Source of the DNA: an uncultured Hyphomicrobiales bacterium
GTDB taxonomy: Bacteria; Pseudomonadota; Alphaproteobacteria; Rhizobiales; Beijerinckiaceae
Assembly (NCBI GenBank): GCA_903902915.1
Contig: CAIUWR010000096.1
Span: forward strand, 1-40,233
Length of the DNA: 40,233 nt
Direction of reading: 5' to 3'
In this document: piece by piece, positions 1-30,065 of the stretch
Numbering within the stretch: the first letter of the stretch is position 1
Layout: every line of letters starts with the position of its first letter
Translations under genes and position numbers: made by a program
The notes under the pieces: model-generated
Database searches by the model: none
What the model was told of the DNA's origin: nothing
What the model saw: only the letters and a program-made list of their open reading frames with translations

Positions 1-580
1 CGGGACCACAGCGGTCGGAGCCGCTGACGCGGGCGCCGGGTCGGACGCGACGACCGAAGCCACAACGGACGGAGCCGCAGACGCGGGCGCCGGATCGGAC
101 GCGACGACCGGGGCCACAGCGGACGGAGCCGCAGGCGCTGGCGCCGCGTCGGAGGCGACGACCGGGACCACAGTGGACGGAGCCGCTGAGGCGGGCGCCG
201 GGTCGGAGGCGACGACCGAAGCCACAGCGGACGGAGCCGCTGAGGCTGGCGCCGGGTCGGACGCGACGACCGAAGCCACAGCTGACGGAGCCGCAGACGC
301 TGGCGCCGGGTCGGACGCTGCGACCGAAGCCACAGCGGTCGGAGCAGCAGGCGCTGGCGCCGGGTCGGACGCGACGACCGAAGCCACAGCGGACGGAGCC
401 GCAGACGCGGGCGCTGGGTCGGACGCGACGACCGAGACCACAGCGGACAAAGCCGCTGAGGCGGGCGCCGGATCGGACGCGACGACCGGGGCCACAGCGG
501 ACGGAGCCGCAGGCGCGGGCGCCGGGTCGGACGCGACGACCGGGACCACAGCAGACGAAGCCGCAGACGCAGCGACGTCC
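1..580. repeat. Tandem 54-bp repeats encoding Pro/Ala linker
   Basis: The marker tcggacgcgacgaccg or a close variant recurs at 41, 95, 149, 203, 257, 311, 365, 419, 473 and 527, exactly 54 bp apart, and the array continues off the left edge. Each unit gives 18 residues on the minus strand, centred on VASDPAPASAAP. Copies differ by a few substitutions with no length change. The unit also leaves another frame open on the plus strand, which yields an artefactual reading frame. The peptide looks like a flexible, weakly acidic stalk or wall-spanning linker of the large surface protein. Confidence 0.9.
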
Positions 581-2967
581 GGCGCCTGCCCCCCTGCACT
601 CTTCGTCATCGGCGCATCGAGGCCCTCGAAGAACGGCGGATCCAGAGGCGGAAGAACCGGCGCCAACCAACTGACGGACTGGATAAAGGACTCGACTGGC
701 ATTTCCACCGGAGGAATCGACGTCGCCGAGAAGAAGCCGCCGATCACGGTTCCACCACTGGAAGCTCCGAAGCCCGGGAAGGACGCGGCCTGGATCGAAG
801 CAGGGGTCACAGGGGTATAGACCAGAGGCGTTTCAGGAGCCTGCCCCGACCAATGCAACGACGCAGGCGGATTGCTCAGCATTCCGTCGGCAAGGTTCAG
901 GCCGATGGGAGATGATAAATTGGTCTGCAAGATCGTGCTGGCGGCGGAGACCGCGAGCGCGGACCGCGCGATGTCGTGTCCACCCGAGCTCAGATAGGCG
1001 TCATGCGCGCGGTTGTAGACGATGTAGTTCGTGCCGCCACCGCCCGACACTGTGTTGAATCCCCAGCCGCCTGAAATCTGGTCATTGCCTCTACCGCCAG
1101 AAATGACGTCGTCGCCAAGCTCGCCGAACATCACATTGGCGCCAGCCCCGCCGGTGATCGTGTCCGCATCGACCGCGAAATGCGATGGCGCGGAGGCCGG
1201 GCTGATCCATGTATGGAGGGAGCCCAGCGGCCCGAAACCGTAGATATAGTTATAATCCGCCATCGGCGTCCCGCCCGTCTCGCCCGAGGGAAACGCGCGG
1301 AATGCGCTGACCAGACCCGTCGCTGACCCCATTTGCGGCAGCACGACGCCGTTGTCGCCAAAGATCAACCCTGCCCCATCGCCAGCGCTGATTTTATCGC
1401 TATTGACGCGGATGTCGGAGCTCGAGCCGTTGAACACATAGCCGCCCGCGCTCGACCAATCCACCACCCCGGCTTGCGCGAGCACGGCTGCGACGCCATG
1501 AGAGTCCGCGATAGCCCCTGCGGCTGAATAGGCGCCAAGGAAGAGACGATCAATCGTCGCGACCATGATCGCTTCCACGTCGTTCGCGGCGGCCGCACTG
1601 CTTGCACCTGCCGCAATGACGGGATCAAGAACCAGGCCGGTGTCGCCAATGATGGTGCTGCATCCACCGCCGCCGGAAATCGTGTCGTCGCCGATATTGA
1701 GCTGGAAGCCCTTGCCGCCTTTGAACAGGGATTGCGCAGCCGCGTCATATTCCGGCGTAAAGGGATGATCAGCGGCGAACTGCGCCGACATGGCCGCCCC
1801 ACGGGAAGCTTCCAAGGCGCGCAGCTGCTGATCGACGCTTCCCAACTCGGACGCCGAGACGCCGCTCGCCCAATTCACCGTCGCCGTTCCCACGCCCGGC
1901 ATGATCACGACGCCATTGTCGCCGATGACGAGATCAGCGCCGTAGCCGCCCTTGATGGTGATGACATCGTCGCCAATGCTCAGCAGATGGGTCGCGGAAC
2001 GCAACGGCGCGGACGGATCATAGACGCCTTGGAAATGCGTCGTCGAAGCGAAATTCGCAATGACCTGCCGACCCGCCTCGTTGACCACGAAGGACGCGTC
2101 GCCGAAGATTTCCTGCATGTCCAGCAAGCGCGCGTCAAAGGCCAGCGCATTGCTGGCGAGCGGTCCTGTCCCGCGCGCGACTCCTACGCCCGGAATGAGA
2201 TATTGGCCAACGTCGCCGAAGATCGTGTTGGAGCCGGTTCCAACGGTGATGTGATCGTTGCCGATGGCAACGACATAGGGCGAGGCTGCGCCTTGCGCCA
2301 CATCAAGAGCGTCCTGCGCGGTTGAAAGCGCCGACAATTGCGTCAGCAGGCCCATCGCTGTGACGGACAGGTCCGTCGCGTTTTTGAACGACAACGCGAT
2401 GTGGCCATCGCTTACTTGACCCGCATTGGCGCCCGTCAGGGACCAATTGGCGTTCGCTGTCGTATCGAAGATGACCTGATTCCGCCCCCCGCCCCCGTCA
2501 AAGGACATGGATGGCGCATCGACCCCGGCGAAGGAAGTTGCGTCAATCGTCAGCGTGTCTTTGCCCGAGCCGCCGAAAATCGAGATGGCGCTGATTTCGT
2601 TGAGGTCGCCAAAGGCGAGCACCGCGCCGCCATTGGCCCTATCGACCAATTGCACACGCTGGACCGAGACAGTCTGGGCGTCGACTTGCTCAGTCGCCTG
2701 CACCATCTGCACCAAGATATCGTGATCGACCGGATGTTGCGGCGAATCCGAAGACAGGTTCAGCGTCAGAACATCCGCGTTGAGCAGAAATCTGGGCTCA
2801 AGCGCGTCGAAGACCAGTCGATCCTCCACCGTCTCCGCCACGCGCGCGCGTGGCCGCGTGGCGCGCGGCCAGAACCATTGCACTGTCGAACGCAGGCGGC
2901 GCCGAACGCCGCCTGAACGCTTTTGAGGGGGACCGGACAGACCAACCGAGCGAAAGGGGAAAGCCAT
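1..2967 (-). CDS. Giant LEPRxLL-box / RTX-type secreted protein (C-terminus beyond left edge)
   Basis: At least 989 residues are open from an ATG at 2967 down to the window edge, with no stop. The N-terminus is strongly basic (many Arg/Pro in residues 5-45) and leads into the box LEPRFLLNAD at residues 56-65, which resembles the LEPR-XLL domain known at the N-termini of very large bacterial surface proteins. Next come degenerate modules about 82-98 residues apart, near residues 234, 332, 424, 520 and 602, each with a pattern like GDDxIxxGxG then IxGDxG. The last (about 600-646) reads as true RTX nonapeptides such as GGAGANVMFGELGDD. From about residue 796 onward the chain is 18-residue Val/Ala/Ser/Asp/Pro repeats. 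RTX repeats are known to bind calcium and fold outside the cell. The nearby HlyD, protease and SecA genes suggest a dedicated exporter (inference). The true length and C-terminal signal are unseen. Confidence 0.85.
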   Translation of the reverse strand, partial: MAFPFRSVGLSGPPQKRSGGVRRRLRSTVQWFWPRATRPRARVAETVEDRLVFDALEPRFLLNADVLTLNLSSDSPQHPVDHDILVQMVQATEQVDAQTVSVQRVQLVDRANGGAVLAFGDLNEISAISIFGGSGKDTLTIDATSFAGVDAPSMSFDGGGGRNQVIFDTTANANWSLTGANAGQVSDGHIALSFKNATDLSVTAMGLLTQLSALSTAQDALDVAQGAASPYVVAIGNDHITVGTGSNTIFGDVGQYLIPGVGVARGTGPLASNALAFDARLLDMQEIFGDASFVVNEAGRQVIANFASTTHFQGVYDPSAPLRSATHLLSIGDDVITIKGGYGADLVIGDNGVVIMPGVGTATVNWASGVSASELGSVDQQLRALEASRGAAMSAQFAADHPFTPEYDAAAQSLFKGGKGFQLNIGDDTISGGGGCSTIIGDTGLVLDPVIAAGASSAAAANDVEAIMVATIDRLFLGAYSAAGAIADSHGVAAVLAQAGVVDWSSAGGYVFNGSSSDIRVNSDKISAGDGAGLIFGDNGVVLPQMGSATGLVSAFRAFPSGETGGTPMADYNYIYGFGPLGSLHTWISPASAPSHFAVDADTITGGAGANVMFGELGDDVISGGRGNDQISGGWGFNTVSGGGGTNYIVYNRAHDAYLSSGGHDIARSALAVSAASTILQTNLSSPIGLNLADGMLSNPPASLHWSGQAPETPLVYTPVTPASIQAASFPGFGASSGGTVIGGFFSATSIPPVEMPVESFIQSVSWLAPVLPPLDPPFFEGLDAPMTKSAGGQAPDVAASAASSAVVPVVASDPAPAPAAPSAVAPVVASDPAPASAALSAVVSVVASDPAPASAAPSAVASVVASDPAPAPAAPTAVASVAASDPAPASAAPSAVASVVASDPAPASAAPSAVASVVASDPAPASAAPSTVVPVVASDAAPAPAAPSAVAPVVASDPAPASAAPSVVASVVASDPAPASAAPTAVVP

Positions 2968-3021
2968 CGAGAAACCCTGTGTCTTGCATCGACAAACCGG
3001 AGCGCCAGGCGAGCGCCGCAG

Positions 3022-3448
3022 TCAGCTCGCCGTATCAACGACTTCCGCGCCTTCAGGCCGCTCCAGAACGCCCAGGACGCGCTCCGCAGTCGGTGTGAAG
3101 TTGCGTTGCGAATGGAGGTGGGCATAGATCAGATCCAGCTCGCCGCTCGCCGCCAACCGCGCCAGCGCGTCGCCCGAAAGGGCTCGGAGGCGCTCGCGAT
3201 TCCCCCCAACGCTCCACCACGCCATTCGCCTCCAGCAGGTCGATCAGGAGGCGAAACCCGGCCGGGGGAAGTCCACAGCGCTGCGCGAGTCGACCGGGCT
3301 CCTGAGCGTCCTCCGCGCGCAATCTATCAACGAGCCCCAATTCGAGAGCGCTCTTGAGCGCCCGGACGTTCAATTCCGTAGTCAGAAAATGGCTGACGCA
3401 AAGGTAATCACGGTCTCGTTGCGCGGACACGGATGGCGACGGCCCCAT
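3022..3448 (-). pseudogene. Winged-helix-like / SapC-tail-like protein split by a frameshift at a C6 run
   Basis: Two overlapping frames read as one protein. The 5' frame (ATG at 3448) gives about 80 residues including HFLTTELNVRALKSALELG and RLLIDLLEANGVVERWG, resembling the winged-helix dimerisation domain of O-methyltransferases. At the six-C run at 3212-3217 the frame must shift to continue into RERLRALSGDALARLAASG and LDLIYAHLHSQRNF, ending at the TGA at 3022-3024. That second part resembles the C-terminal end of SapC-family proteins. No methyltransferase catalytic domain follows. The gene lies 54 bp upstream of the RTX protein gene on the same strand, so they are probably co-transcribed. 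The break may be a sequencing error, true decay or slippage; the sequence alone cannot decide. Family assignments are tentative. Confidence 0.5.
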
Positions 3449-3615
3449 ATGAGAATCGGCCCGAAATGCGGGCGCCTGACGCCGCCCGCGAGGGATTTGC
3501 TCATGATTGATTTACATTTATTAACATATTATGCAACGTTTTTAGTTCGAATTGTAGACAAAAATGCGCGCTTACGTTAAAAAAACAGAATTAATTTTAC
3601 TGCGAGAGGCTGTTC
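3449..3615. promoter_or_regulatory. AT-rich divergent promoter region
   Basis: This gap separates the minus-strand RTX unit from the plus-strand export unit. Positions 3505-3600 are far richer in A/T than the surrounding coding DNA, as expected for promoters firing both ways. A GAGAGG ribosome site lies just upstream of the ATG at 3616. I could not pick one clear -35/-10 pair. Confidence 0.5.
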
Positions 3616-4941
3616 ATGCGTGTGATTGCGGCAAGAGCATTGGTGGCGGGCCTCGTGATGGCCGCCACCGGTTTGGCGAATGACGCCTTCGCGGCGGATC
3701 TGCCTGTAGCCGGGTCCGCCAGCGTCAATTGGACGGGCTTTTACATAGGGGGCGACGTCGGCGGATTATTCGCCCACACCACCCATGCGACCCCGGATCC
3801 AACCATCGCGACCGATGGAATCGGATCCATCAGCCAGCGCCCCTCGTTCGGGCTGATCGCGGGGCTGAACTATCAGGTCGGCCCTCGCCTCGTATTTGGA
3901 GCTGAGGCGCAGCGAACCTCGTTCAGCGGCCTGAATTTCCGTGAATATGGCCCTGACTATGACTTCCTTCAGAAGGTTAAATCCCTGACCAGCCTGACAG
4001 GCCGCTTCGGCGTCCTGGTGAGCGCCAATACGCTGGCCTATGGCAAACTCGGCGCCGCCTCGATTGAAACGTCCGGCTTCGAGGGCTTTGGATCGTCCTT
4101 CAACAAGACGATCCCCGGCTTTCAGGCTGGCGCAGGAATCGAGACGCAAGTCACGCCCAACGTCGCCGTGCGCGGCGAGGCGCTTTACACGCGCGCCACA
4201 GGCGAACTCAAGCTGAATGAAGGCTTTGATAGCTACCGGCCCGGACTGATCCAGTACAAGTTGGGCGCCGTCTATCGGTTCGACGCCCATCAGGGATGGG
4301 GCGATCCGGCCGCTGACGTCGGTCGACAATGGGGCTTGGGGCAGGTCGGGGAGCCCGCATGGACCGGCATGACTTTGGGCGGTTTTGGCTCGCTCAATGG
4401 CCATCAGACGAGCTGGAACGAGGTCTCCGGCAATCTCGGCCCCTATACCGACCTTTCGGCGGGCGGCGGCGGCTTTGTCGGCGCGAATTTGAAAATTCTG
4501 CCCATGGCTGTGGTCGGCGTGGAGGTCAGCGCCAATTTCTCGCACGGCAATTTCATTGATCCGGCGGGAACGGGTCTGGCGAATGAATTTCATCGCTTCG
4601 CCAGCGTAGACCGGGTGCTTGCGGCGACGGCGCGCGTCGGTTGGCTGGCGACGCCAGGCACGCTGCTTTACGCCAAGGGCGGGCGGGCCTCCATGAACAT
4701 GGCCATCGACACCGCATATTGGACCGCGCTGGCGCCAAACGTTGGCGGAAACAAGAGCTTGCCAGCCTGGCAGGCGGGCGTTGGCGTCGAGACCTATGTG
4801 ACGCCGGACATCAGCCTGCGGATCGAAGGATTGTACACCGCTGCGATGAACAGCGTCGTTATGCAAGGAACATCCCCGGATGTGATTTCCATGCGCCCCA
4901 GCGACATGTCCGGAACCTTCGGCGTCGCGCTCCATTTTTGA
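3616..4941 (+). CDS. Outer-membrane protein of two tandem 8-strand-type beta-barrels
   Basis: The 441-residue product has a signal peptide (residues 1-27, ending AFA before ADLP) and then two similar halves. The first, about 37-227, starts NWTGFYIGGDVGG; the second, about 249-441, starts AWTGMTLGGFGS. Both share the Opacity/Omp25-31 layout: alternating aromatic strands, a TLAYGKLG or TLLYAKGG hairpin, QAGAGIETQVTPN or QAGVGVETYVTPD, and a strand like LRIEGLYT. The chain ends in HF, a usual barrel-assembly signature. Single-barrel relatives have about 200-250 residues, so this is an internal duplication. It leads the plus-strand run into DUF3467-like, GAF-HlyD, M50-HlyD and SecA genes. It might be an outer-membrane partner of that system, but such barrels are normally too narrow to export proteins, so that role is speculative. 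Confidence 0.8.
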   Translation: MRVIAARALVAGLVMAATGLANDAFAADLPVAGSASVNWTGFYIGGDVGGLFAHTTHATPDPTIATDGIGSISQRPSFGLIAGLNYQVGPRLVFGAEAQRTSFSGLNFREYGPDYDFLQKVKSLTSLTGRFGVLVSANTLAYGKLGAASIETSGFEGFGSSFNKTIPGFQAGAGIETQVTPNVAVRGEALYTRATGELKLNEGFDSYRPGLIQYKLGAVYRFDAHQGWGDPAADVGRQWGLGQVGEPAWTGMTLGGFGSLNGHQTSWNEVSGNLGPYTDLSAGGGGFVGANLKILPMAVVGVEVSANFSHGNFIDPAGTGLANEFHRFASVDRVLAATARVGWLATPGTLLYAKGGRASMNMAIDTAYWTALAPNVGGNKSLPAWQAGVGVETYVTPDISLRIEGLYTAAMNSVVMQGTSPDVISMRPSDMSGTFGVALHF

Positions 4942-5029
4942 GGCCAGGCGACCGATCAAGCAATGGCCGGGCGCAGGCGGCCATCAAATGCGCCGCCGCG
5001 CAGCAGGAACTGCGGAAGCAGGAGAAAGC

Positions 5030-5329
5030 ATGAGCACCCCACCCGCTTCGGACCATGAAACGTCCTATTCGCCTGCCGTTCGGTGGAACGACAAGTCGAT
5101 GACCACCCATTTCGCCAATGTAGTGAACGTGCAAAGCACACGCGAGCAGGTGGACCTTTTTTTCGGCATGAACCAGACCTGGAATGCGGCGGGCGACGGT
5201 CAGGTTGTCGTGGATCTTTCCAATCGCATTGTCCTGACGCCCTTCGCGGCCAAACGCCTATGGGCCGTGTTGGGAGGCGTCTTGCAGGAATACGAGGCGC
5301 GCCACGGAGCCCTCGTGGTTGACCGATAG
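5030..5329 (+). CDS. DUF3467-like small protein
   Basis: This 99-residue soluble protein has no signal peptide or membrane segment. The start ATG at 5030 follows a GGAGAAA ribosome site; a longer frame from 4988 lacks one. The layout FANVVNVQSTREQVDLFFG, then a short variable stretch, then RIVLTPFAAKRLWAVLGGV and a final YEARHG matches my memory of DUF3467, a family of unknown function. It lies 23 bp upstream of the GAF-HlyD gene in the same direction, which places it in the putative export operon. A cytosolic accessory or chaperone role is only a guess from position. Confidence 0.7.
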   Translation: MSTPPASDHETSYSPAVRWNDKSMTTHFANVVNVQSTREQVDLFFGMNQTWNAAGDGQVVVDLSNRIVLTPFAAKRLWAVLGGVLQEYEARHGALVVDR

Positions 5330-5352
5330 CAACGGCGCCGAACACAGGAGCC

Positions 5353-7236
5353 ATGGTGATCGACCAGAGTTCTGCTTCCGCAGATACCGGAAATGACCCG
5401 CCATCTGTCGCCCTTCTCGAGTCCGCTCTCTGGAAAGGGCTTCTGGAGGCGCGCGAAACGCGCGACATGGCGCAGGCGTGGCTGCCCCTCCAGTGTCAGT
5501 TCATCAAGGGCGCAAGCCACGCGATCGTGGTGCTTGCAGGCGCAAAGCCCAACAGCTTCGAGGCGGTGGCGCATTGGCCTGACGAGACTGTCGGCCGCAC
5601 GCAGCGATTGGTGGAGGTCGCCCAGATCGCCATGCGCGAAAAGCGGGGAATCGCCCGCATGGCGCCACGCGGATCGGGCGGCGAGCCGATGCGCGAGACC
5701 CGGATCGCCTTGCCGATCATATTTGACGACGAGGTTCAGGGAGCCGTGGCCCTCTCGCTGGGTGGCTGGGCGCCGGATGATCCGCGCCTCGCCATGCGCC
5801 AATTGCAATGGGGCATGAACTGGCTGGTCGATCTCATGGGGAGGCGCAGTCTTGAGGAGCAAAGCACGCTCCTGAACCGTTCGAAAATTGCGCTTGATCT
5901 TCTGGCGGCGGCGCTTGACCACGAAAGCTTCGAAAAATCAGCGATCGCCGTCGTGACGGAATTGGCGGTGAGAACGCGATGCGTTCGCGTCAGTCTGGGA
6001 TTTCGGCGCGGGCGGACGAGCGTCGTCAAGATCATTTCACATAGCGCGCAATTCGGACGCCACATGAACCTGATCGCTTGCCTTGGCGCGGCGATGGACG
6101 AGGCGCTGGATCAGCGCCGCCTGATTCTGCACCCCGCGCCAGATGATCAATTCGTCGCCACCCTGGCGCATGCGGAACTGTCCAGAATGCAAAAGGATGG
6201 TCAAGTTCTGACGATTCCGCTTTTGGCCGCCGACCGATTTATCGGCGCGCTCACCTTTGAGCGTCCCCCAGGTTCGGATTTCGACCCCGGAACGATTAAA
6301 TTGCTGGAGGCGGCGACCGCCATTCTGGCGCCCGTGCTGCAAGAAAAACGCGCCAATGACCGCTGGCTGATTTTCAAGGTCGGCGAAAGCATAGGGCTTG
6401 AACTGACGCGCATTTTCGGTCCCGGACATCTGACCCGCAAACTGATCCTGACCGCCGCCATTATCGGCGCAGCGTTCCTCACCTTTGCGGAAAACACCTA
6501 TCGCGTGAACGCGACGGCGCAAATCGAGGGACTGGTGCGCCGCGCCGTCGTCGCGCCCTATGACGGGTTCACGAAGGAGGCGATGGCTCGCGCCGGCGAC
6601 ACCGTCCGCGAGGGCGACGTCCTCGCCACCCTGGAAGATCGCGAATTGCTGCTCGAGCGCCTCAAATGGGTGAACGAGCGGCAGCAGCGGCTCTTTGAAT
6701 ATGACAAGGCGCTCGCCAGCCGCCAGCCAGCCGCAATCAATGTCATTCGAAGCCAGATTGACCAGGCCCAGGCGCAGATCAAATTGATCGACGAGCAATT
6801 GGCGCGTGTGCGGCTGACCGCGCCCATCGCTGGCCTTCTCGTCTCGGGCGACCTCAGCCAGATGATCGGCGCTGCGGTGCAACGCGGGCAAGTTCTATTC
6901 GAGGTCGCGCCTCTGGACAGTTATCGCGTCATTCTTGATGTGGATGAGCGCGACGTCGGCGTCATCGAAGTCGGGCAAGCGGGACAACTCGTGGTTTCCG
7001 CACTGCCGCATGAAACGATGGCCTTCGTCATCGACAAGGTGACGCCCATCGCAGAAGCGCGCGGCGGGCTGAACGTGTTTCGGGTCGAGGGTAGGATCAA
7101 CGAAACGTCGCCGCGCCTTCGCCCCGGCATGGAGGGGGTCGGAAAAGTCGAGATTGGAACCCGCAAACAAGCCTGGATCTGGTTTCATCCTCTGCTGGAC
7201 TGGTTGCGGATCTGGTCCTGGCGCTGGATGGGCTGA
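5353..7236 (+). CDS. GAF-GAF-TM-HlyD periplasmic adaptor
   Basis: The 627 residues divide into a soluble N-terminal half and an HlyD-type half. Residues about 45-150 and 195-335 look like two GAF domains, each ending in an IPL or LPI strand and a GALTFE- or GAVALS-type strand. One membrane helix follows at about 362-381 (KLILTAAIIGAAFLTF). After it come a lipoyl/barrel-sandwich half (RRAVVAPYDGFTKE), a helical hairpin of about 75 residues, the second lipoyl half (RLTAPIAGLLVSGD) and a beta-barrel with DERDVGVIEVGQAG. HlyD adaptors bridge inner and outer membranes in type I and RND exporters. GAF domains bind small ligands or partners, here on the cytosolic side, so export may be gated by a cytosolic signal (inference). 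The stop lies 7 bp before the M50 gene, indicating one operon. Confidence 0.85.
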   Translation: MVIDQSSASADTGNDPPSVALLESALWKGLLEARETRDMAQAWLPLQCQFIKGASHAIVVLAGAKPNSFEAVAHWPDETVGRTQRLVEVAQIAMREKRGIARMAPRGSGGEPMRETRIALPIIFDDEVQGAVALSLGGWAPDDPRLAMRQLQWGMNWLVDLMGRRSLEEQSTLLNRSKIALDLLAAALDHESFEKSAIAVVTELAVRTRCVRVSLGFRRGRTSVVKIISHSAQFGRHMNLIACLGAAMDEALDQRRLILHPAPDDQFVATLAHAELSRMQKDGQVLTIPLLAADRFIGALTFERPPGSDFDPGTIKLLEAATAILAPVLQEKRANDRWLIFKVGESIGLELTRIFGPGHLTRKLILTAAIIGAAFLTFAENTYRVNATAQIEGLVRRAVVAPYDGFTKEAMARAGDTVREGDVLATLEDRELLLERLKWVNERQQRLFEYDKALASRQPAAINVIRSQIDQAQAQIKLIDEQLARVRLTAPIAGLLVSGDLSQMIGAAVQRGQVLFEVAPLDSYRVILDVDERDVGVIEVGQAGQLVVSALPHETMAFVIDKVTPIAEARGGLNVFRVEGRINETSPRLRPGMEGVGKVEIGTRKQAWIWFHPLLDWLRIWSWRWMG

Positions 7237-7243
7237 ACGCACC

Positions 7244-9391
7244 ATGCGCGAATCCCTCTTCAGCCCTTCATGGTACCGGGTTTCGGCCGTTCGGCCGCAA
7301 CTGCGTCCACATATCGCCATTCATCGACAAGTGTTTCGCGACAAGGTCTGGCACGTCTTGCAGGACCACCAAACCGGCCGGTTTCACCGCCTGTCGCCAA
7401 TCGCGAATCTGATGGTGTGTCTGATGGACGGCCGCCGCACCATGCAGGACATCTGGGAAGCTGTCGGCGAAAGGGCCAAGGACGCTCCCCCCACGCAGGA
7501 CGATACGATCGCACTCCTGTCGCAACTGCACGCCTCGGATTTGCTACAAGGCGAAATTCCACCAGATTTCAACGAAATGGCGCAACGCTCCGAAACAGCG
7601 TCCCGGCGTCGGCTGCTGCAACGCCTGCGCAACCCCATCGCCCAGCGGATTCCCCTGTTCGATCCTGATCGCCTGCTTGATCTGACCCTTCCGCTGATCC
7701 GGCCCGTCTTCACCATAGGTGGCTTTCTGGTTTGGCTGGGCCTTGTCGGCGTGGGCGTCGTTCTCGCGGCATTGCATTGGAGCGAACTGACGGCCGACGT
7801 CATCGACCGCGTCCTGGCGGCCGAGAATGTCGCCGTGATGATGGCGATCTACCCCCTGATCAAAAGCCTGCACGAACTTGGGCATGCCTATGCGACGAAG
7901 ATATGGGGCGGTGAAGTTCATGAGATAGGCGTCATGATGCTCGTCTTCATTCCCATGCTCTATGTGGATGCGTCAGCCTCGGCAGCCTTCACCCACAAGC
8001 GGCAACGCATCATAGTGGGCGCAGCGGGCATCATGGTCGAAACGGCCCTGGCGGCGCTCGCAATGATCGTGTGGATCAACGCCAGCCCAGGCGTCGGCCG
8101 CACGGCGGCGTTCAACATCATGCTGATTGGCGGCGTTTCCACGCTCCTCGTCAACGGCAACCCACTGCTGCGGTTCGACGGCTATTATATTTTTTCGGAC
8201 CTGATCGAGATCCCCAACCTCGGCGCCCGCGCCAACGCCTGGTTCTTTCATCTCATACAGCGCCGGGTTTTCGGGATACCCAATCTGGAAACACCCCTTA
8301 CAGATCCAGGCGAAGCCAAATGGATGCTCGCATACGCGGTCTTGTCGTTCGTATATCGGCTCAGCGTTTCGGTCGGAGTCGCGTTGTTCCTGTCAACACG
8401 CTTGTTTTTCTTCGGCGCCATTCTGGCGATCTGGGCGATGGCTTCAATCGCCGTGACGCCTCTATTCAAGGGGCTCAGGTTCCTGGCGACCAGCCCGCGC
8501 CTGCGCGGTCGGCGGCGCCGCGCGTTTCTGATCGCAGGCGGCCTGAGCGCAGCGCTCGCAATCACGCTGTTCGTCATTCCCCTGCCCTATGCGACGGTTG
8601 TCGAAGGCGTCGTGATCGTTCCCGATCAGGCGGAGGTGCGCGCCCGCGCGGAAGGTTTCATCGCAACCTACTCCACCCAGCCTGGCGAGGATGTCGATCC
8701 TGACCAGGAACTGTTGCGGCTCGAAGATCCAAATATCAAGGCCCGGGTCGCGGTCATCGAGGCTCAACTCGAGGAAACGCGCCAGCGTTTCATCTCAATT
8801 GAACTCGTTGATCGGGCGCAGGCGCAGATGCTGGCGGATCAGATCACGCATCTGACCAGTCGATTGGACTCATTCCGGGCGCGTGAGCGCGAGCTGACGA
8901 TCACGGCGGAGCAAGCGGGACGGTTCATCTTGCCGCGCGCCACAGACCTGATCGGGCGTTTCGTAAAACGTGGCGACCTCATCGGCTATGTGATCAGCGA
9001 CGCCAAGGTAACTGCGCGCGTCGCGGTTCCACAATCGGAGATCGACGTCATTCGTCACCGCACGACCGACATCGAGGCCCATATGATCGGGGATCTGGCG
9101 CGCGCCATACCCGCCCGCATCATCCGTGAGACGCCAGCCGCAGGGCGCGACGTGCCGAGCCTCGCCTTGACCACGCGGGGCGGCGGCGACATCGCACTCG
9201 ACCCATCCGGCGCGCGTCGGCCCGAAGCCCTCTTCAGTCTGTTCCTGATCGACGTGGAGTTGCTTGAACCCTCAAGAGACCGCACTCAGGGCTCGCGCGT
9301 CTTCGTTCGCTTCCAGCACGACGATGAGGCCATCGCCTGGCGCCTGCTGCGCAGCGCACGCCAGTTCTTCCTGGCCCAGTTCAATGTCTGA
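7244..9391 (+). CDS. PqqD-like / site-2 metalloprotease (M50) / HlyD fusion
   Basis: The 715-residue membrane protein starts at ATG 7244; an earlier ATG would run back into the upstream gene. Residues about 12-105 look like a PqqD-type peptide-binding domain (HVLQDHQTGRFHRLSPIANL). The M50 core has HELGHA at 210-215 (H210, E211, H214) and NGNPLLRFDGYY at 304-315 with the second metal ligand D312, set among several hydrophobic helices from about 150 to 480. Residues about 500-640 form an HlyD-like unit with two half-motifs around a coiled coil. Site-2 proteases cut peptides within or next to the membrane; M50-HlyD fusions are known near peptide exporters. All catalytic ligands are present. The gene overlaps the SecA start by 8 bp, so the two are probably translationally coupled. 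A likely job is trimming or handing over the exported RTX protein (inference). Confidence 0.85.
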   Translation: MRESLFSPSWYRVSAVRPQLRPHIAIHRQVFRDKVWHVLQDHQTGRFHRLSPIANLMVCLMDGRRTMQDIWEAVGERAKDAPPTQDDTIALLSQLHASDLLQGEIPPDFNEMAQRSETASRRRLLQRLRNPIAQRIPLFDPDRLLDLTLPLIRPVFTIGGFLVWLGLVGVGVVLAALHWSELTADVIDRVLAAENVAVMMAIYPLIKSLHELGHAYATKIWGGEVHEIGVMMLVFIPMLYVDASASAAFTHKRQRIIVGAAGIMVETALAALAMIVWINASPGVGRTAAFNIMLIGGVSTLLVNGNPLLRFDGYYIFSDLIEIPNLGARANAWFFHLIQRRVFGIPNLETPLTDPGEAKWMLAYAVLSFVYRLSVSVGVALFLSTRLFFFGAILAIWAMASIAVTPLFKGLRFLATSPRLRGRRRRAFLIAGGLSAALAITLFVIPLPYATVVEGVVIVPDQAEVRARAEGFIATYSTQPGEDVDPDQELLRLEDPNIKARVAVIEAQLEETRQRFISIELVDRAQAQMLADQITHLTSRLDSFRARERELTITAEQAGRFILPRATDLIGRFVKRGDLIGYVISDAKVTARVAVPQSEIDVIRHRTTDIEAHMIGDLARAIPARIIRETPAAGRDVPSLALTTRGGGDIALDPSGARRPEALFSLFLIDVELLEPSRDRTQGSRVFVRFQHDDEAIAWRLLRSARQFFLAQFNV

Positions 9392-11387
9392 CGACGCCTC
9401 GCGCGAACGCTTCGCGAATTGGCGTCCCCCGATGCAGCAGCCCTATGTGGAGCGCCCGGAGCGGCGCGAAGACGCCCTGGACGCACTGGCCGCCGAAGGG
9501 CAAGCCTGGCTGATCGAAGCCTCCGCCCGAGCGAGGGCGCGCCGCCTGCGCAAGATTCTGCCGCTGGTCGCGCGCTACGAGCAATCATTTCGTGGGCTGG
9601 CTCCGGCGGATCTGCCCCCGACGATCCGCCATGCGGCGATCGAACTGCGCAAGGCCGCAGAATTCGACGACGAGGCGGTCGCGCGCGCCTTCGCGCTGAT
9701 CCGAGAACTGTCGGACCGCGTGCTTGGCAAGCGTCACTATGATGTTCAGATTCTGGGCGCCTTCGCCATGGTCAAGGGCATGCTCGCGGAGATGGCGACG
9801 GGGGAAGGAAAGACGCTGACCGCAACGCTCGTGGCGGGCGTCGCCGGACTTGCCGGCGTGCCCATCCATATCGTCACGGTCAACGACTATCTCGCCAGAC
9901 GCGACGCCGAGCTGATGCAGCCCCTTTACGCCGCGCTTGGACTCACCGTGGGAATCGTGGCCGCCGGTCAGGATCTGCTGGAGCGGCGACAGGCCTACAG
10001 CCAGGACATCGTCTATTGCACGAACAAGGAACTCGCCTTCGACTATCTGCGCGACCGCATGGTGCTTGGGCAATCGCCGGGCGACCTGACGCTGAAAGTC
10101 GAAGCCCTGCATGACAAGACCCCGAGGCTTGGCCAATTGCGCCTGCGAGGCTTGCATTTCGCGCTCGTCGATGAGGCCGACAGCGTTTTGATCGACGAGG
10201 CGCGCACCCCGCTCATCATTTCAGGCCCGGCGGCGACGGTGATGGACCGCGATACGGTGTCGCGCGCGCTGGAGCTTGCCGCGAGCCTTGAGGCGGAAGC
10301 CGACTACTTCGTCTCGAAAGAGGAGCGCCGCGTCTACCTTACTGCGCGCGGTTCGCTGCGCGTCGCCGACTTCGCCGCCACGCTTTCCGCCAATTGGCGC
10401 GGGGCGGTGTCACGCGAGGAGCTGGCGCGGCAGGCGCTGACCGCCTTGCGTCTGTTCAACCGCGATGAACATTACGTGGTCGCCGACGGCAAGGTTAAGA
10501 TCGTCGATGAATATACCGGCCGTCTTATGCCTGATCGCTTCTGGAGCGACGGACTGCATCAAATGATAGAATTTAAGGAGGGCTGCGATCTGTCCGAGCG
10601 ACGCGCCACCATCGCGCGCATGACGTATCAGCGGTTCTTTCGCCGCTATCGGCGGCTGTCGGGCATGAGCGGCACGCTTCGAGCCGTGCAACGGGAATTG
10701 TGGAGCGTCTATCGCATTCCGGTCGTCGCCATACCGACCCGCAAGCCAGTGGTGCGCGTTCAGCGGCCTGACATCGTGGTCCATACAAATGCGCTGAAGT
10801 GGCGCCATATTCTTCAACGCGTATCGGAAATCCACGCGACTGGCGCGCCTGTGCTGATCGGAACCCGCTCGGTCGCCGTCTCGCTTGAAGCGAGCGCGCA
10901 TCTGAACGCGGCGGATCTGCCGCATACGGTGCTCAACGCCACCCAGAACGAACGGGAGGCGCAGATCATCGCGCAAGCTGGCGAGCGCGGCCGCATCACC
11001 ATCGCCACCAATATAGCGGGCCGCGGCACGGACATTCACCTCGGCGAGGGCGTGCGCGAGCTTGGCGGATTGCATGTCATCATGACGGAGCGCCACGACG
11101 CCCTACGCATCGACCAGCAATTGGCGGGGCGCAGCGGCCGACAGGGCGAGCCAGGCAGTTTCGAGGCCATCCTCTCGATGGAGGATCGGTTGCTCGAAGG
11201 CTCAAGCACCCTTCTCAACCTTGCTGCAAAATTTCTGCGAGGCCGCGCCCGCGACTGGCTGGCGCGGCGCGCCTCGCGACTGTCGCAACGCAGCGCCGAG
11301 CGACTGCATGCGCGCATGCGCGCAGAATTGCTCAAATCGGATCAATGGCGAATGCAGACGCTCGCTTTTTCCGGCAAGCCGGAGTGA
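9384..11387 (+). CDS. Truncated accessory SecA-type translocase ATPase
   Basis: The 667-residue protein starts at the ATG inside the protease stop (ATGTCTGA, 9384-9391). SecA features are clear: RHYDVQILGA then MATGEGKT (Walker A, about 138-144), the Walker B DEAD box about 263-266 followed by SVLIDEARTPLIISGP, a preprotein-crosslinking region, YQRFFRRYRRLSGMSGTLR, and the second motor domain with NIAGRGTDIHLGEGV and GRSGRQGEPGSF at about 542-590. It ends soon after, so most of the helical scaffold/wing region and the C-terminal zinc-binding tail of the roughly 900-residue housekeeping SecA are missing. The motor residues look intact, so it is probably active. The housekeeping secA is not in this window. 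Its place in an HlyD/M50 operon suggests it drives one dedicated substrate, probably the neighbouring RTX protein (inference). Confidence 0.9.
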   Translation: MSDDASRERFANWRPPMQQPYVERPERREDALDALAAEGQAWLIEASARARARRLRKILPLVARYEQSFRGLAPADLPPTIRHAAIELRKAAEFDDEAVARAFALIRELSDRVLGKRHYDVQILGAFAMVKGMLAEMATGEGKTLTATLVAGVAGLAGVPIHIVTVNDYLARRDAELMQPLYAALGLTVGIVAAGQDLLERRQAYSQDIVYCTNKELAFDYLRDRMVLGQSPGDLTLKVEALHDKTPRLGQLRLRGLHFALVDEADSVLIDEARTPLIISGPAATVMDRDTVSRALELAASLEAEADYFVSKEERRVYLTARGSLRVADFAATLSANWRGAVSREELARQALTALRLFNRDEHYVVADGKVKIVDEYTGRLMPDRFWSDGLHQMIEFKEGCDLSERRATIARMTYQRFFRRYRRLSGMSGTLRAVQRELWSVYRIPVVAIPTRKPVVRVQRPDIVVHTNALKWRHILQRVSEIHATGAPVLIGTRSVAVSLEASAHLNAADLPHTVLNATQNEREAQIIAQAGERGRITIATNIAGRGTDIHLGEGVRELGGLHVIMTERHDALRIDQQLAGRSGRQGEPGSFEAILSMEDRLLEGSSTLLNLAAKFLRGRARDWLARRASRLSQRSAERLHARMRAELLKSDQWRMQTLAFSGKPE

Positions 11388-11393
11388 AACGTG

Positions 11394-12263
11394 TCACTGC
11401 GATGCGCCAGGCCTGACCGGCGCATCCGGAATGTCGAAGGACACGCGACAGCGCAGACCCCCAGGCACGGAACTATCCGGGTTGGGCAACGTCAACCGCA
11501 CGCCGAAAGTACCGCTGGCCGCATCAAATACCTGATCAACCACCTGAACCCGGGCGAGCCTTTCGCCGCCGACCGGATCGTCGGGCCGGACCGTCGCCAT
11601 GTCGCCGACATGAACCCGGCCAAACAGGCTGACCGGCATGAAAGCCTCGACATTCAAAGGATCTATTCGGGATAGCGTGACGATGGTCGCGTCCTGATGC
11701 ACATATTCACCCGGGCCAAGCGAACGCTGGGTGACGATTCCATCTATGGGACTGCGGATGGTGCGCTGGTCGAGCAAAGTGCGCGAGCGCGAAAGCTCAA
11801 GTTCCGCCATCCGCTTGCCGAGCTGGGCGAGCACGAGTTCTTGCTCGGCGACGTGGAAATCGGCTTGCGCATTTTCAGAATCCTGAACGCTTCCGACATT
11901 GCGCGAGAGCAGATCACCCTTGCGGTGCATGACGCCTGACTTCTGTTTCAACACCGACCGCTTCGCCTCGATTTCCGCCGTGCTTTCGGCGCGTTCCGCA
12001 TTGGCTGCGACGACGGCCTCTTCAACGCTGGATTCAATCTGGGCGACCACCTGTCCGCGCGCGACACGATCGCCACGCTCCACCATCACCCCCGACAGGA
12101 TGCTGGCGACAGGACTGCCAAGCTTAACGATAAGGGAAGGCTCCATGACGCAATCAAAGGTGGCCGCGTCAGACGCTCCGGGCAGGAAGGTCGCGATCGC
12201 GCCCAAAATTGGCAAAATAACTCGGAAGCGAATAGGGCTCGCCTCGAAATCGGGCAATGGCAT
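11394..12263 (-). CDS. Periplasmic HlyD/RND-type membrane-fusion protein
   Basis: I chose the ATG at 12263 (289 residues). An upstream in-frame start would lie inside the hairpin after glnII. Residues about 12-34 form a signal peptide ending near SDAA. The mature chain begins LIVKLGSPVASILSGVMVERGDRVARG, a typical first lipoyl half, followed by an alpha-hairpin of about 100 residues, RTIRSPIDGIVTQRSLGPGEYV (second half, slightly shortened motif here: SPIDGIVTQR), and a beta-barrel with VEAFMPVSLFGRVHVGD. It is shorter than most adaptors and lacks a long C-terminal proximal domain. Only 6 bp separate its stop from the SecA stop, in convergent orientation. It is the third adaptor-type product at this locus, probably part of the same envelope-spanning system. 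Confidence 0.8.
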   Translation of the reverse strand: MPLPDFEASPIRFRVILPILGAIATFLPGASDAATFDCVMEPSLIVKLGSPVASILSGVMVERGDRVARGQVVAQIESSVEEAVVAANAERAESTAEIEAKRSVLKQKSGVMHRKGDLLSRNVGSVQDSENAQADFHVAEQELVLAQLGKRMAELELSRSRTLLDQRTIRSPIDGIVTQRSLGPGEYVHQDATIVTLSRIDPLNVEAFMPVSLFGRVHVGDMATVRPDDPVGGERLARVQVVDQVFDAASGTFGVRLTLPNPDSSVPGGLRCRVSFDIPDAPVRPGASQ

Positions 12264-12371: not shown

Positions 12372-12404
12372 CGCCCGACGCATGCGAAACGCTTGCGTCG
12401 GGCG
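12372..12404 (-). terminator. Hairpin downstream of glnII
   Basis: Arms CGCCCGACGCA (12372-12382) and TGCGTCGGGCG (12394-12404) pair over 11 bp without mismatch, 17 bp after the glnII stop. No long U-run follows on the minus strand, so it may be a weak or RNA-stabilising terminator. Confidence 0.55.
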
Positions 12405-17447: not shown

Positions 17448-19814
17448 TCAGCCCGCCCGCGCCGCCCGATATCGGCTCGCGCGGCCGGAACCGAGCGCTT
17501 CCGCAGCATGAATGATGGCGTTGGCGTCAAGCCCGTGATGGCGATAAAGCTCGGCGATGGAGCCGGTCTGGCCGAAATGCTCCACACCCAGCGCCTTCTG
17601 CCGATGACCATAAACGCTCCCCAGCCAGGCCAGCGTGACAGGATGGCCGTCGATGACGCTGACGATCCCGCAATCGCGTCCCAGATCGCCGAGCAGGCTT
17701 TCCACATGGCTGATGGCGCTGACTGCGCCCCGCTGACGGGCGCGCTCAGCCGTCTGCCAGTCCGCATGCAGCCGATCCGCCGAGGTGATCGCCAGCAGGC
17801 CGATATCTCGCCGATCTTCCGCCAGGAGGCCCGTCGCGACAATGGCTTCGGGCGCCACCGCGCCCTGATAGGCGATGACGGTCTCGCAATTGGGGCCAGG
17901 CGCTCGCAACCAATAGGCGCCCTTGACCATGTCCCGCCGCAAATCCGCCGTCAGCTTGCGCGGCGGCTGCTCCACCGGGCGGGTGGAAAGGCGCAAATAG
18001 ATTGAGCCTCCCGCCTCCTCCTGCATATGGCTGAAGCCAAAGCGCATGATCTCCGAAAGCTCATCAATGAAGGCCGGTTCGAACGAGAGCAGCCCGTCCT
18101 GCGCCATGCCGACCAGCGGCGTGCCAATGGATTGATGCGCCCCGCCTTCCGGCGCCAGCGTGATGCCGGAGGGCGTGGCGACCAGCATGAAACGCGCGCC
18201 TTGATAGCAAGCGTAATTCAATTGATCCGCCGCACGGTAGATGAACGGATCATAGACTGTGCCAATCGGCAAAAGCCGCTCGCCATTGATGTCATGCGAC
18301 AGGCCCAGAGCCGACAACATGAGGAACAGGTTGGATTCGGCGATCCCCAGCTCCACATGCTGACCGCGCGGACCAAACTCCCAGTTGAAGGTGGAGGGAA
18401 TCCGCTCTTCCTTGAACGTGTCGGCCAGCGCGTCGCGCGCGAACAATCCCCGACGATTGATCCAGGGCCCCAGATTGGTGGACACGGTGACGTCTGGGGA
18501 CGTGGTGACGATGCGCCGCGCAAGCTCGGTGTCTTCCCGCGCGATTTCATTCAGGATCTGGCCAAAGCCCATCTGGGTCGAGATCGGCTTGCCGCCCGCC
18601 GTCGGCATGGGCAGCGTGACCGGCACTGTGATCGCGCGCGCGGACAAGCGCCTCTCGCCCGCCGCGAAAAAGGGAGCGGCTGCGATGAAGGATTGCAGCG
18701 TCCGGGGCGCGTGTTCGAGCGCCGCCCACTTGTCCCATTCCTGCCCCGGCCGCACGCCGAGGCTTTCGCGAAAGCCATCCATCTGCGCGGGCGTCATCAG
18801 ACCCGCATGATTGTCCTTGTGGCCTGCGAGCGGCAAACCGTGGCCCTTGATCGTATAGGCGATGAAACAGACGGGGCGCTCATGGCGCGAGGCCTTGTCG
18901 AAAGCGTCGAGCAGGGTTGGCAGATCATGGCCGCCCAGGTTGGTCATGAGGGCGCCGAGGGCGCTGTCGTCGCGGCGCTCGATCAGCGCCCGCACTTCTG
19001 CGTCCCCTCCCAGATCGTCCAGCAAACGCTTGCGCCAGGCGGCGCCGCCCTTGAAGGTGAGCGCCGAATAGAGCTGGTTCGGGCAAGCCTCGATCCATTC
19101 GCGCAATCGGGCGCCGCCCGGCTCGGCGAAGGCGGCCTCCTGCAATTGGCCGTGGCGCAGCACGACGACATCCCAGCCGAAGCTCTCGAACATGCGCTCG
19201 AATTTCGCCCAAAGACCTTCGCGCACCACCGCGTCGAGGGATTGCCGATTGTAGTCGACCACCCACCAGCAGTTGCGCAGCCCATGTTTCCAGCCCTCCA
19301 CGATCGCTTCGTGGATATTGCCCTCATCCATCTCCGCATCGCCGATCAGCGCCACCATCCTTCCCTCGGGACGGGACGTCATCCAGTCATGGGCGCGGAC
19401 ATAATCTTGCGCGAGGGACGAAAACAGCGTCTGCGCGACGCCAAGGCCAACAGATCCGGTGGAAAAATCGACGTCGTCCACATCCTTGAGGCGCGAGGGA
19501 TAGCTTTGCGCGCCACCGAAGCCGCGAAAGGCTTCGAGCTTTTCAAGGCCCTGGCGCCCGGCCAGATACTGGATCGCGTGAAAGATCGGAGCGGCGTGGG
19601 GCTTGACCGCCACACGATCCTGCGGACGCAGAGCTGCAAAATAAAGCGCCGTCATGATGGTGGAGACCGAGGCCGACGACGCCTGATGGCCGCCGACCTT
19701 CAGACCATCCTCGTTGGCGCGCAGGTGGTTCGCGTTGTGGATCATCCACGACGAAAGCCAGAGAACCTTGCGCTCAAGATCACGCAGAATCGGCAGCATC
19801 GTGGACTGGCGCAT
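17448..19814 (-). CDS. Homodimeric 2-oxoacid dehydrogenase E1 (AceE/MdeB-like)
   Basis: The 788-residue thiamine-diphosphate enzyme resembles AceE, which decarboxylates pyruvate in the E1 step. The start ATG at 19814 has GGGGG upstream. The cofactor motif is GDAEMDEGNIHEAI near residues 155-170, after GGHQASSASVSTIMTALYF; later come FIAYTIKGHGLPLAGHKDNH and the transketolase-like pyrimidine region FGPRGQHVELGIAESNLF. It is about 100 residues shorter than E. coli AceE, and no E2 or E3 gene is near. Pseudomonas MdeB, a 2-oxobutyrate dehydrogenase E1 next to an Lrp regulator, is a fitting precedent: here an Lrp/AsnC gene is divergent. A role in breakdown of amino-acid-derived oxoacids is therefore more likely than the main pyruvate dehydrogenase, though unproven. 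Confidence 0.85.
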   Translation of the reverse strand: MRQSTMLPILRDLERKVLWLSSWMIHNANHLRANEDGLKVGGHQASSASVSTIMTALYFAALRPQDRVAVKPHAAPIFHAIQYLAGRQGLEKLEAFRGFGGAQSYPSRLKDVDDVDFSTGSVGLGVAQTLFSSLAQDYVRAHDWMTSRPEGRMVALIGDAEMDEGNIHEAIVEGWKHGLRNCWWVVDYNRQSLDAVVREGLWAKFERMFESFGWDVVVLRHGQLQEAAFAEPGGARLREWIEACPNQLYSALTFKGGAAWRKRLLDDLGGDAEVRALIERRDDSALGALMTNLGGHDLPTLLDAFDKASRHERPVCFIAYTIKGHGLPLAGHKDNHAGLMTPAQMDGFRESLGVRPGQEWDKWAALEHAPRTLQSFIAAAPFFAAGERRLSARAITVPVTLPMPTAGGKPISTQMGFGQILNEIAREDTELARRIVTTSPDVTVSTNLGPWINRRGLFARDALADTFKEERIPSTFNWEFGPRGQHVELGIAESNLFLMLSALGLSHDINGERLLPIGTVYDPFIYRAADQLNYACYQGARFMLVATPSGITLAPEGGAHQSIGTPLVGMAQDGLLSFEPAFIDELSEIMRFGFSHMQEEAGGSIYLRLSTRPVEQPPRKLTADLRRDMVKGAYWLRAPGPNCETVIAYQGAVAPEAIVATGLLAEDRRDIGLLAITSADRLHADWQTAERARQRGAVSAISHVESLLGDLGRDCGIVSVIDGHPVTLAWLGSVYGHRQKALGVEHFGQTGSIAELYRHHGLDANAIIHAAEALGSGRASRYRAARAG

Positions 19815-19953
19815 GGGGTCCCCCCTCGAAAGACAGACGCAGGATAGACCGCTTCGTGGGGGATAATTTTCCAAATATACGATTGCTAAATGCGGATAAA
19901 TTGGAATATTATTTTACAAACTCCCCCGGAAACGAAACTGGAGCCCAACCCCT
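19815..19953. promoter_or_regulatory. AT-rich divergent region with TTCCAA/TTGGAA inverted repeat
   Basis: This 139-bp gap separates the E1 gene from its divergent Lrp/AsnC gene. An AT-rich core (19861-19915) contains TTCCAA at 19869-19874 and TTGGAA at 19901-19906, an inverted pair with centres about 32 bp apart. Lrp-type proteins favour AT-rich, loosely palindromic DNA, so this is a plausible operator for both genes. Confidence 0.4.
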
Positions 19954-28667: not shown

Positions 28668-29955
28668 TCGTCTCCAGCCCGCCCATATAGGGCCGCAGCG
28701 CTTCGGGCACGGTGACGCTGCCGTCGGCGTTCTGGTAATTCTCCAGAACCGCAATCAGCGCGCGGCCCACGGCGACGCCTGAACCGTTCAGCGTATGGAC
28801 GAAGCGGTTGCCCTTGCCCTCAGTGGGGCGATAGCGGGCGTTCATGCGCCGCGCCTGAAACTCGCCGCAGACCGAGCAGGAGGAAATCTCGCGGAAGCGG
28901 TCCTGGCCGGGCAGCCAGACCTCGATGTCGTAGGTCTTGCGCGAGGCGAAGCCCATGTCGCCCGCGCAGAGCGTCATCACCCGGTAATGCAGGCCGAGAC
29001 GCTTCAGCACCTCTTCGGCGCAGGCGGTCATGCGCTCGTGTTCGGCCAGCGCCTGCTCGGGCGTGGTGATCGAGACCATCTCCACCTTGATGAACTGATG
29101 CTGGCGGATCATGCCGCGCGTGTCGCGCCCCGCTGCGCCCGCCTCGGCGCGGAAACAGGGGGTCAGCGCGGTGACGCGCATGGGCAGGCTCTTCTCGTCG
29201 AGAATTTCCTCGCGCACCAGATTGGTGAGCGGCACTTCGGCGGTGGGGATCAGCCAGAAGTCCTCGCCCGCGCGGAACTGATCATCGCGGAACTTGGGCA
29301 ATTGCGCGGTGCCATACATGGCCTCGTCGCGCACCAGCACGGGCGGGTTCACCTCTTCATAGCCATGGTCCTGCGTATGGACGTCGAGCATGAATTGGCC
29401 CAAAGCACGCTCCAGCCGCGCCAAAGCCCCGCGCAAGATCACGAAACGCGAGCCCGACATTTTCGCCGCGCGTTCGAAATCCATCAGGCCAAGCGCCTCG
29501 CCGATCTCGAAATGCTCTTTCGGCTTGAAGCCCTCGTCAAAGGTGGGGCGGGTTCCGACGACGCGGGCCTCCACATTGTCATGCTCATCGGCGCCGTCGG
29601 GCACTTCATCCAGCGGCAGATTGGGCAATTCGAACAACGCGGTTTCAAGCGCGCGCACGGCGATGGTCTCGGCTGCGGCGGCGCCCTCGGTCTCGCTTTT
29701 GATTTCGGCGACGCGGGCCTTCAGCTCCTCGGCGCGGGCGAAGTCCTTCTTGCCCATGGCCTGGCCGATTTCCTTGGAGAGGCGGTTGCGCTCCTCCTGG
29801 CCGCGCTGGGTCACGGCGATGATGTCGCGCCGCTCGTCGTCGAGGCGGAACAGCGTCGCCACGGTCTCCTCGACCTTCAACCCATCCCAGCCACGCCGAC
29901 GCAGCCCCGCCTTGAGGGACTCGGCATTATCGCGGATCCAGCGGATGTCATGCAT
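28654..29955 (-). CDS. serS: Seryl-tRNA synthetase
   Basis: The 433-residue class II synthetase charges tRNA-Ser. The start ATG 29955 gives [18 protein letters not shown], the conserved N-terminus. A coiled-coil tRNA-binding arm covers about residues 30-105 ([19 protein letters not shown]). Motif 2 is [20 protein letters not shown] (it positions ATP) and motif 3 is near [19 protein letters not shown]. All expected parts are present. Its 3' end overlaps the convergent nucleotidyltransferase gene by 14 bp. Confidence 0.97.
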
Positions 29956-30065
29956 GGGAGTGACTTTCGAAAGAGAGGCGGCTGGCCGAGCGCCAAGGAA
30001 TCGCAAGCACCCAATATCAGATGCGGCGGCAGGCGCTCAATGGCCGTGCAAGCCACCTTGCCCCC

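Follow-up and report, generated by a model that had tools for sequence, protein, structure and literature searches.

The left part of a contig from an uncultured Hyphomicrobiales bacterium encodes a short SecA, a PqqD-M50-HlyD membrane protein and further HlyD-type adaptors beside the gene of a giant LEPR-XLL protein with RTX repeats. The window analysed here is this entire contig (C96, CAIUWR010000096.1; 40,233 nucleotides), and the genome to which it belongs has 3.68 Mb and is 99.9% complete. The machine genes form a real and widespread export-type module that has been known since 2015, and a strong genomic association points to the giant LEPR-XLL proteins as its cargo, an assignment that is new here. 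The best explanation, and a fairly probable one, is that the module is a type-I-like envelope exporter that dispenses with an ATP-binding cassette (ABC) protein and is dedicated to these giant proteins. The cargo would carry a leader, usually basic and non-hydrophobic, that ends with LEPRxLL-S/N-x-D/E. This leader would be bound in the cytosol by the PqqD-like domain of the M50-HlyD protein, whose M50 site would probably make a cut there or close by. The unfolded chain would be fed by the truncated SecA, driven by ATP, into a path that the M50 membrane domain forms or gates, SecA being the usual but dispensable motor and not the defining part of the system. The periplasmic conduit would be built from the HlyD portions of the M50 and GAF proteins together with the free HlyD adaptor and would lead to a TolC-type channel encoded elsewhere in the genome, and the GAF domains may have a regulatory role.

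The module and its conservation

Modules of this kind were described by Kamneva, Poudel and Ward (2015; PMC4452313), who report secondary SecA_DEAD proteins whose wing-scaffold domain is wholly or partly missing and whose genes lie, in several phyla, in conserved neighbourhoods with genes of M50-HlyD, GAF-HlyD, HlyD and sometimes OEP proteins. In the same paper no ABC protein was found in the module, SecA was proposed to be the ATPase and M50 a possible pore, and the broader role was called 'completely unknown'. The cargo is not named there, and LEPR, RTX, PqqD and DUF3467 have zero occurrences in the main text. One of the operons named in the paper is MexAM1_META1p2402-2399 of Methylobacterium extorquens AM1. 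The window has the same four core genes, with those for M50-HlyD, GAF-HlyD and HlyD adjacent to each other, a SecA without the SecA_SW domain and no ABC gene among the ORFs scanned. The link to a cargo, the co-variation of a motif, relatives without SecA and the tailoring genes are added by the present analysis.

The window begins on the left with the LEPR-XLL/RTX gene, which is encoded by the minus strand. Gene remnants follow at about 3.1-3.4 kb, and then come, on the plus strand, the genes of an outer-membrane protein, a DUF3467 protein, the GAF-TM-HlyD protein (TM, transmembrane), the PqqD-M50-HlyD protein and the short SecA. The LEPR gene is divergent from this run, and a third HlyD adaptor gene lies tail to tail with the short SecA gene. 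Only 7 bases separate the GAF-HlyD and M50 genes, and the M50 and SecA genes overlap by 8 bases. The genes named in an earlier sequence-only reading of this DNA are all present where it had placed them; its claim that the system was undescribed is superseded by the publication of 2015, and its expectation that the module genes occur together in other genomes is borne out by the relatives. These were sampled as the best 80 M50 loci, from named genomes, of at least 580 confirmed, and are thus the best-scoring relatives and not a random set; their record titles cover alpha-, beta-, gamma- and deltaproteobacteria, a Deferribacteres bin, Nitrospira and a Rokubacteria bin. A SecA homologue follows the M50 gene in 71 of the 72 loci with enough sequence, GAF-HlyD precedes it in all 68, HlyD3 follows it in 47 of 58, and DUF3467 is found upstream in 39 of 64, the recurrent order being DUF3467, GAF-HlyD, M50, SecA, HlyD.

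LEPR-XLL proteins as the likely cargo

The presumed cargo gene of the window (1..2967, minus strand) has 989 readable codons, and its product is assigned to the LEPR-XLL proteins by a match to NF012209 near the N-terminus (residues 51-69; 24.2 bits, cut-off 17). It also matches the RTX profile PF00353 (42.3 bits), with nonapeptide repeats at about residues 601-659 (991..1167, minus strand), and at the contig edge the gene contains 10.5 copies of a 54-bp tandem repeat (6..570, minus strand). Because the contig ends at base 1, the 3' end of the gene and any sequence further to the left lie beyond what can be read in the assembly.

The NF012209 and M50 profiles were run on the same 397 genomes of the phylum of the window, of which 39 have LEPR-XLL proteins, 35 have an M50 protein of the module type, and 32 have both. 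LEPR-XLL proteins are thus found in 32/35 genomes with the module-type M50 vs 7/362 without it (p 6e-37) and, collapsed to genera, in 20/23 vs 6/209 (p 1e-20). Single genera hold genomes with both and genomes with neither: in genus g4, G549, G564 and G626 carry LEPR and M50 and G238 and G554 lack both; in g5 the same is seen for G559, G637 and G754 as against G305 and G529, and in g3 for G645 as against G158. Since the link is kept at the genus level and both are gained or lost jointly within genera, it is not merely taxonomic. It is also found in a second phylum, that of the Nitrospira genome G420 (locus L060), where LEPR-XLL proteins occur in 8/9 genomes with a module-type M50 vs 1/139 without (148 genomes); the single LEPR genome outside the rule, G898, carries a weaker M50 at a distance of about 1 kb from the LEPR match. 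The remaining 7 LEPR genomes of the first phylum, too, all have a weaker M50 homologue, which means that an M50 homologue of some type is present in 39/39 LEPR genomes; the threshold of 420 bits that separates module-type from weaker M50 was chosen once the scores were known, and no score lies between 426 and 291 bits. The longest LEPR open frame has 19,427 codons, though many are short in fragmented genomes. Also adjacent to M50-HlyD genes are a giant protein with DUF4347 and Ig repeats, whose LEPR motif stays below the threshold (L187:261-8792), and a start with LEPRILLDGAA (L196:17746-18627), the frame of the latter being short.

The leader and the motif

In the window, the motif LEPRFLL (2782..2802, minus strand), followed by NAD, is read in the sequence after a basic, non-hydrophobic leader of 55 aa. 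The 44 leaders read have 15 to 80 residues and a positive net charge in 40 cases. They have no hydrophobic core, unlike the 45 adaptor N-termini with which their hydropathy was compared, this control consisting in practice of adaptor open reading frames (ORFs) only, owing to a length limit of 330 aa. The leader start was mostly taken as the first ATG within 130 residues, and L068, an ORF antisense to SecA, is excluded from the 45 leader rows.

All 52 LEPR matches of the phylum sample are covered by the motif table (G040 and G573 stand outside it), and LEPRxLL is followed by S/N/A-x-D/E in 39 and by D-x-A/T in 13 of them. The form goes with the type of the linked M50: S/N-x-D/E is present in 22/23 genes linked to a module-type M50 and in 0/6 linked to a divergent M50 (Fisher 1.5e-5), whereas D-x-A/T is present in 6/6 of the latter. 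Both locus types occur in G652, where the D-x-A gene has a short open frame of 316 codons. In G678, which has a module-type M50 and no short SecA, the motif keeps the S-x-E form, and the tag therefore follows M50 rather than SecA.

The M50-HlyD protein

The PqqD-M50-HlyD membrane protein of the window (7244..9391, plus strand; 715 aa) has a PqqD-like domain (7352..7546, plus strand; PF05402, 28.7 bits), the zinc-protease motif HELGH (7871..7885, plus strand) and the motif NPLLRFDGY. In the 48 aligned M50 proteins H210, E211, H214 and D312 are invariant, that is, the HExxH residues and the aspartate of the second motif, and HExxH is kept also in LEPR genomes that have no short SecA or a pseudo-SecA. 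Among PqqD/RRE leader-binding domains, RREs bind leader peptides, and the PqqD-like domain is a candidate for recognition of the LEPR leader. The PqqD-M50 half resembles the daptide-type intramembrane metalloprotease NF041824, which matches over residues 49-445 of the 745-aa ORF with 148.8 bits, but the protein stays below the cut-off of 300, is fused to a MacA-like adaptor and is linked to a cargo of thousands of residues.

The short SecA

The short SecA (9384..11387, plus strand; 667 aa) matches SecA_DEAD with 323 bits and has no SecA_SW match. Its alignment with B. subtilis SecA ends at residue 600 by sequence or 611-614 by structure, and thus where the helical wing and the two-helix finger of a full-size SecA, both of which contact SecY, presumably begin. 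A single full-size SecA is encoded in the genome besides the short one, on contig C6, and a third match is weak (26 bits). Walker A is found in 67 of the 69 SecA homologues that were collected from the module-type branch. The divergent short SecA of L176 was considered as a housekeeping SecA and rejected, as it groups with the short clade. Module SecA homologues without a recognizable Walker A or arginine finger are found at L079:11802-13268, L188:6682-8484 and L191:3946-5811, and the pseudo-SecAs of L079 and L188 keep the C-terminal tail.

Accessory Sec systems likewise pair an additional SecA-family ATPase with a large surface-type cargo, and the short SecA could be a SecA2 that drives the LEPR protein via SecYEG into the periplasm, from where adaptors and TolC would take over. 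This is quite unlikely, as the short SecA ends before the wing and the finger, the leader has no hydrophobic core of a Sec-type signal, and the short SecA is missing from part of the LEPR genomes. Accessory Sec systems also have SecY2 and Asp proteins, where the window module has M50 and adaptors. The curated SecA2 cut-offs are all missed by the window protein (TIGR03714, 496.6 of 930 bits; TIGR04221, 425.3 of 725; TIGR04397, 536.5 of 1085; NF012136, 403.8 of 1100).

The conduit and the outer-membrane step

Three window proteins have HlyD_D23 or HlyD_3 matches and are thus HlyD-type adaptors. Apart from the M50 protein these are the GAF-TM-HlyD protein (5353..7236, plus strand; 627 aa), with matches to GAF_3 (PF13492, 34.3 bits), HlyD_D23 (PF16576, 56.7 bits) and PF13437 and a single hydrophobic segment at residues 360-378, and the third adaptor of the HlyD/RND type (11394..12263, minus strand, the longest ORF starting at 12383), which has an N-terminal hydrophobic segment and matches TIGR01730 with 111.3 bits (cut-off 94.9). 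The run starts with the gene of an outer-membrane beta-barrel protein (3616..4941, plus strand; 441 aa; PF13505, 54.7 bits, and PF01389), homologues of which sit at the equivalent place in L006, L013 and L076, and continues with that of the DUF3467 protein (4988..5329, plus strand; 113 aa; PF11950, 55.8 bits).

The HlyD-type adaptors, the RTX cargo and the TolC-family genes beside some modules are shared with type I secretion (HlyB/HlyD/TolC), but the module has no ABC permease-ATPase and the LEPR leader is N-terminal, the C-terminus of the cargo being off the contig here. A Pfam scan of 27 window proteins, which leaves some ORFs of the right half aside and is bounded by the left edge of the contig, finds neither an ABC permease-ATPase nor a TolC-type OEP protein, the latter an occasional and not required part of the published module. 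Elsewhere the genome encodes two OEP proteins, one of which, on contig C10, exceeds the TolC cut-off (TIGR01844, 312 vs 225 bits).

Points that weigh against the proposed exporter

Several observations stand against a dedicated exporter as outlined above, in which transport of LEPR proteins through the module is itself a prediction. With regard to the cargo, three genomes of the 397 have a module-type M50 and no LEPR match, among them G573, with a LEPR-like stretch in the neighbouring giant ORF (16.6 of 17 bits), and G498, where the M50 gene sits on a contig of 6.8 kb. In the conservation sample, 8 of 49 module genomes have no LEPR match, these 49 being derived from 50 loci selected from the 80, with mostly fragmentary loci left out and two loci sharing one genome. 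Five Methylorubrum genomes of this set do have a LEPR protein. The genome counts are based on only two scored M50 candidates per genome. The motif rule is broken by G626, where the linked gene has DGT beside a module-type M50, and the co-variation of motif and M50 could come partly from shared ancestry of cargo and machine. The Pfam match of the window protein to Peptidase_M50 (18.4 bits) is below the cut-off of 27.2, a score that relatives in L182 and L185 pass; among the structure matches listed there is none for its membrane part, and a regex for the second M50 motif finds it in 10 of 14 exceptional proteins.

No short SecA was found in 9 of the 22 LEPR-positive genomes that were checked for it, a set weighted to exceptions in which a strongly degenerate SecA may escape. 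In the SecA-less G678, the end of a giant ORF, DUF3467, GAF-HlyD, the module-type M50, HlyD3 and a TolC-family gene follow each other consecutively (L182:3738-19000), the LEPR match lying, by position, at the start of the frame of the giant ORF. Large ORFs, HlyD-type genes and a divergent M50 are found at L184, L185, L186 and L196, with OEP by Pfam in L184 and L185, and no ABC gene was recognized between the parts of these five SecA-less loci among the ORFs scanned, which were not all. The SecA homologues of G762 and G437 have no ATPase motif by regex, and in that of L079 both Walker A and the arginine finger are missing. A further point against the dedicated exporter is that TolC-family genes adjoin the module at only 7 of the 80 loci. 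It is conceivable that M50-HlyD alone is the inner-membrane exporter, powered by the housekeeping SecA or the proton gradient, and that the short SecA is a structural or quality-control addition, which would fit the SecA-less LEPR loci, the tail-keeping pseudo-SecAs and the M50 homologue in every LEPR genome of the phylum sample. The near-constant SecA homologue after M50 at module-type loci and its mostly intact Walker A argue against this, and it is very unlikely.

The genome also offers a conventional route, as a PrtD-type ABC protein (613 vs 510 bits) is encoded on contig C7 with a HlyD-like ORF alongside. With this pair and the TolC protein on C10, an ordinary type I system could export the LEPR protein, and the module would then only mature, modify or regulate it, M50 acting as a membrane protease and the GAF part as a sensor. 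The RTX repeats of the cargo and the tailoring-type genes near many modules are in favour of this. However, LEPR genes track the module, fused ABC-like ORFs (at least 480 aa, by motif) are found near just 3 of the 80 loci, and the presence of three HlyD-type proteins within a single module speaks for a conduit, all of which makes the ordinary type I route rather unlikely. The PrtD-type pair (L213:2624-5607) lies near ORFs that appear by eye to be of the sugar-nucleotide type.

For the dedicated exporter as the sequence-only reading had drawn it, the conserved ABC-free module and the tie to LEPR-XLL proteins hold. SecA as an essential feeder is poorly supported, given the LEPR loci with no short SecA or a pseudo-SecA, and so is the idea that the system characteristically lacks TolC, given the loci with linked TolC-family genes and the TolC protein encoded elsewhere in the genome. 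Trimming by the protease and sensing by the GAF domains are proposals.

Tailoring genes and remnants

Near the modules of the 80 loci, BLAST finds relatives of SapC in 24, directly after M50 in at least 9, and further tryptophan-halogenase-like proteins (13), radical SAM proteins (13), an unnamed 286-aa protein (13) and O-methyltransferases (11), Pfam having been run on representatives. Loci where genes of the SapC, halogenase-like, radical SAM and methyltransferase kinds lie beside the module include L005, L006, L016, L029, L034, L044, L049 and L067, and SapC is sometimes placed between M50 and SecA. In the window, the C-terminal end of a SapC gene and the N-terminal end of a methyltransferase gene lie side by side between the LEPR and barrel genes (3097-3448, minus strand). 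The SapC remnant (3097..3201, minus strand; PF07277, 29.4 bits, profile positions 183-217, found by three-frame translation) is the sole SapC match in the genome, and the O-methyltransferase remnant (3197..3370, minus strand) covers the N-terminal dimerization domain, with a score slightly below the cut-off (PF08100, 23.9 of 25.6 bits). A deletion of intervening genes would leave these two ends adjacent, and the pair is consistent with the loss of a halogenase/radical SAM cassette that relatives keep in between. This suggests that the cargo may be modified in some relatives and, in the organism of the window, no longer by SapC.

Other genes of the window

The rest of the window (12422-40233) looks ordinary in the 20 ORFs scanned, which include glutamine synthetase, patatin, a DAO oxidoreductase, Glu-tRNA synthetase, citrate synthase, SurE, RibD, serine hydroxymethyltransferase and an L,D-transpeptidase. 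A ClpB-type AAA+ ATPase gene on the right side is truncated by the contig end, and the ORFs 18027-19844, 28795-30096 and 30021-31049 (plus strand) have no Pfam match at 1e-5.

Implications

Compared with the description in PMC4452313, what is new is a cargo derived from genome-wide evidence and a candidate recognition tag whose form varies together with one part of the machine, and the two make the role of the module testable by single-gene knock-outs. Possibly, with a chance a little short of even, the module stands for a distinct secretion pathway of giant proteins in which ABC pump and Sec signal are both dispensed with. Here LEPRxLL would be an address tag that is read, and perhaps cut, by PqqD-M50-HlyD, with two matched types of tag and receptor (S-x-D/E and D-x-A), and a SecA without the parts that engage SecY would be reused as the feeder of a TolC-type conduit. 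If this is true, SecA has been freed from SecY and a metalloprotease has taken the place of an ABC exporter, and it would explain how a large class of giant, mostly uncharacterized proteins leaves the cell.

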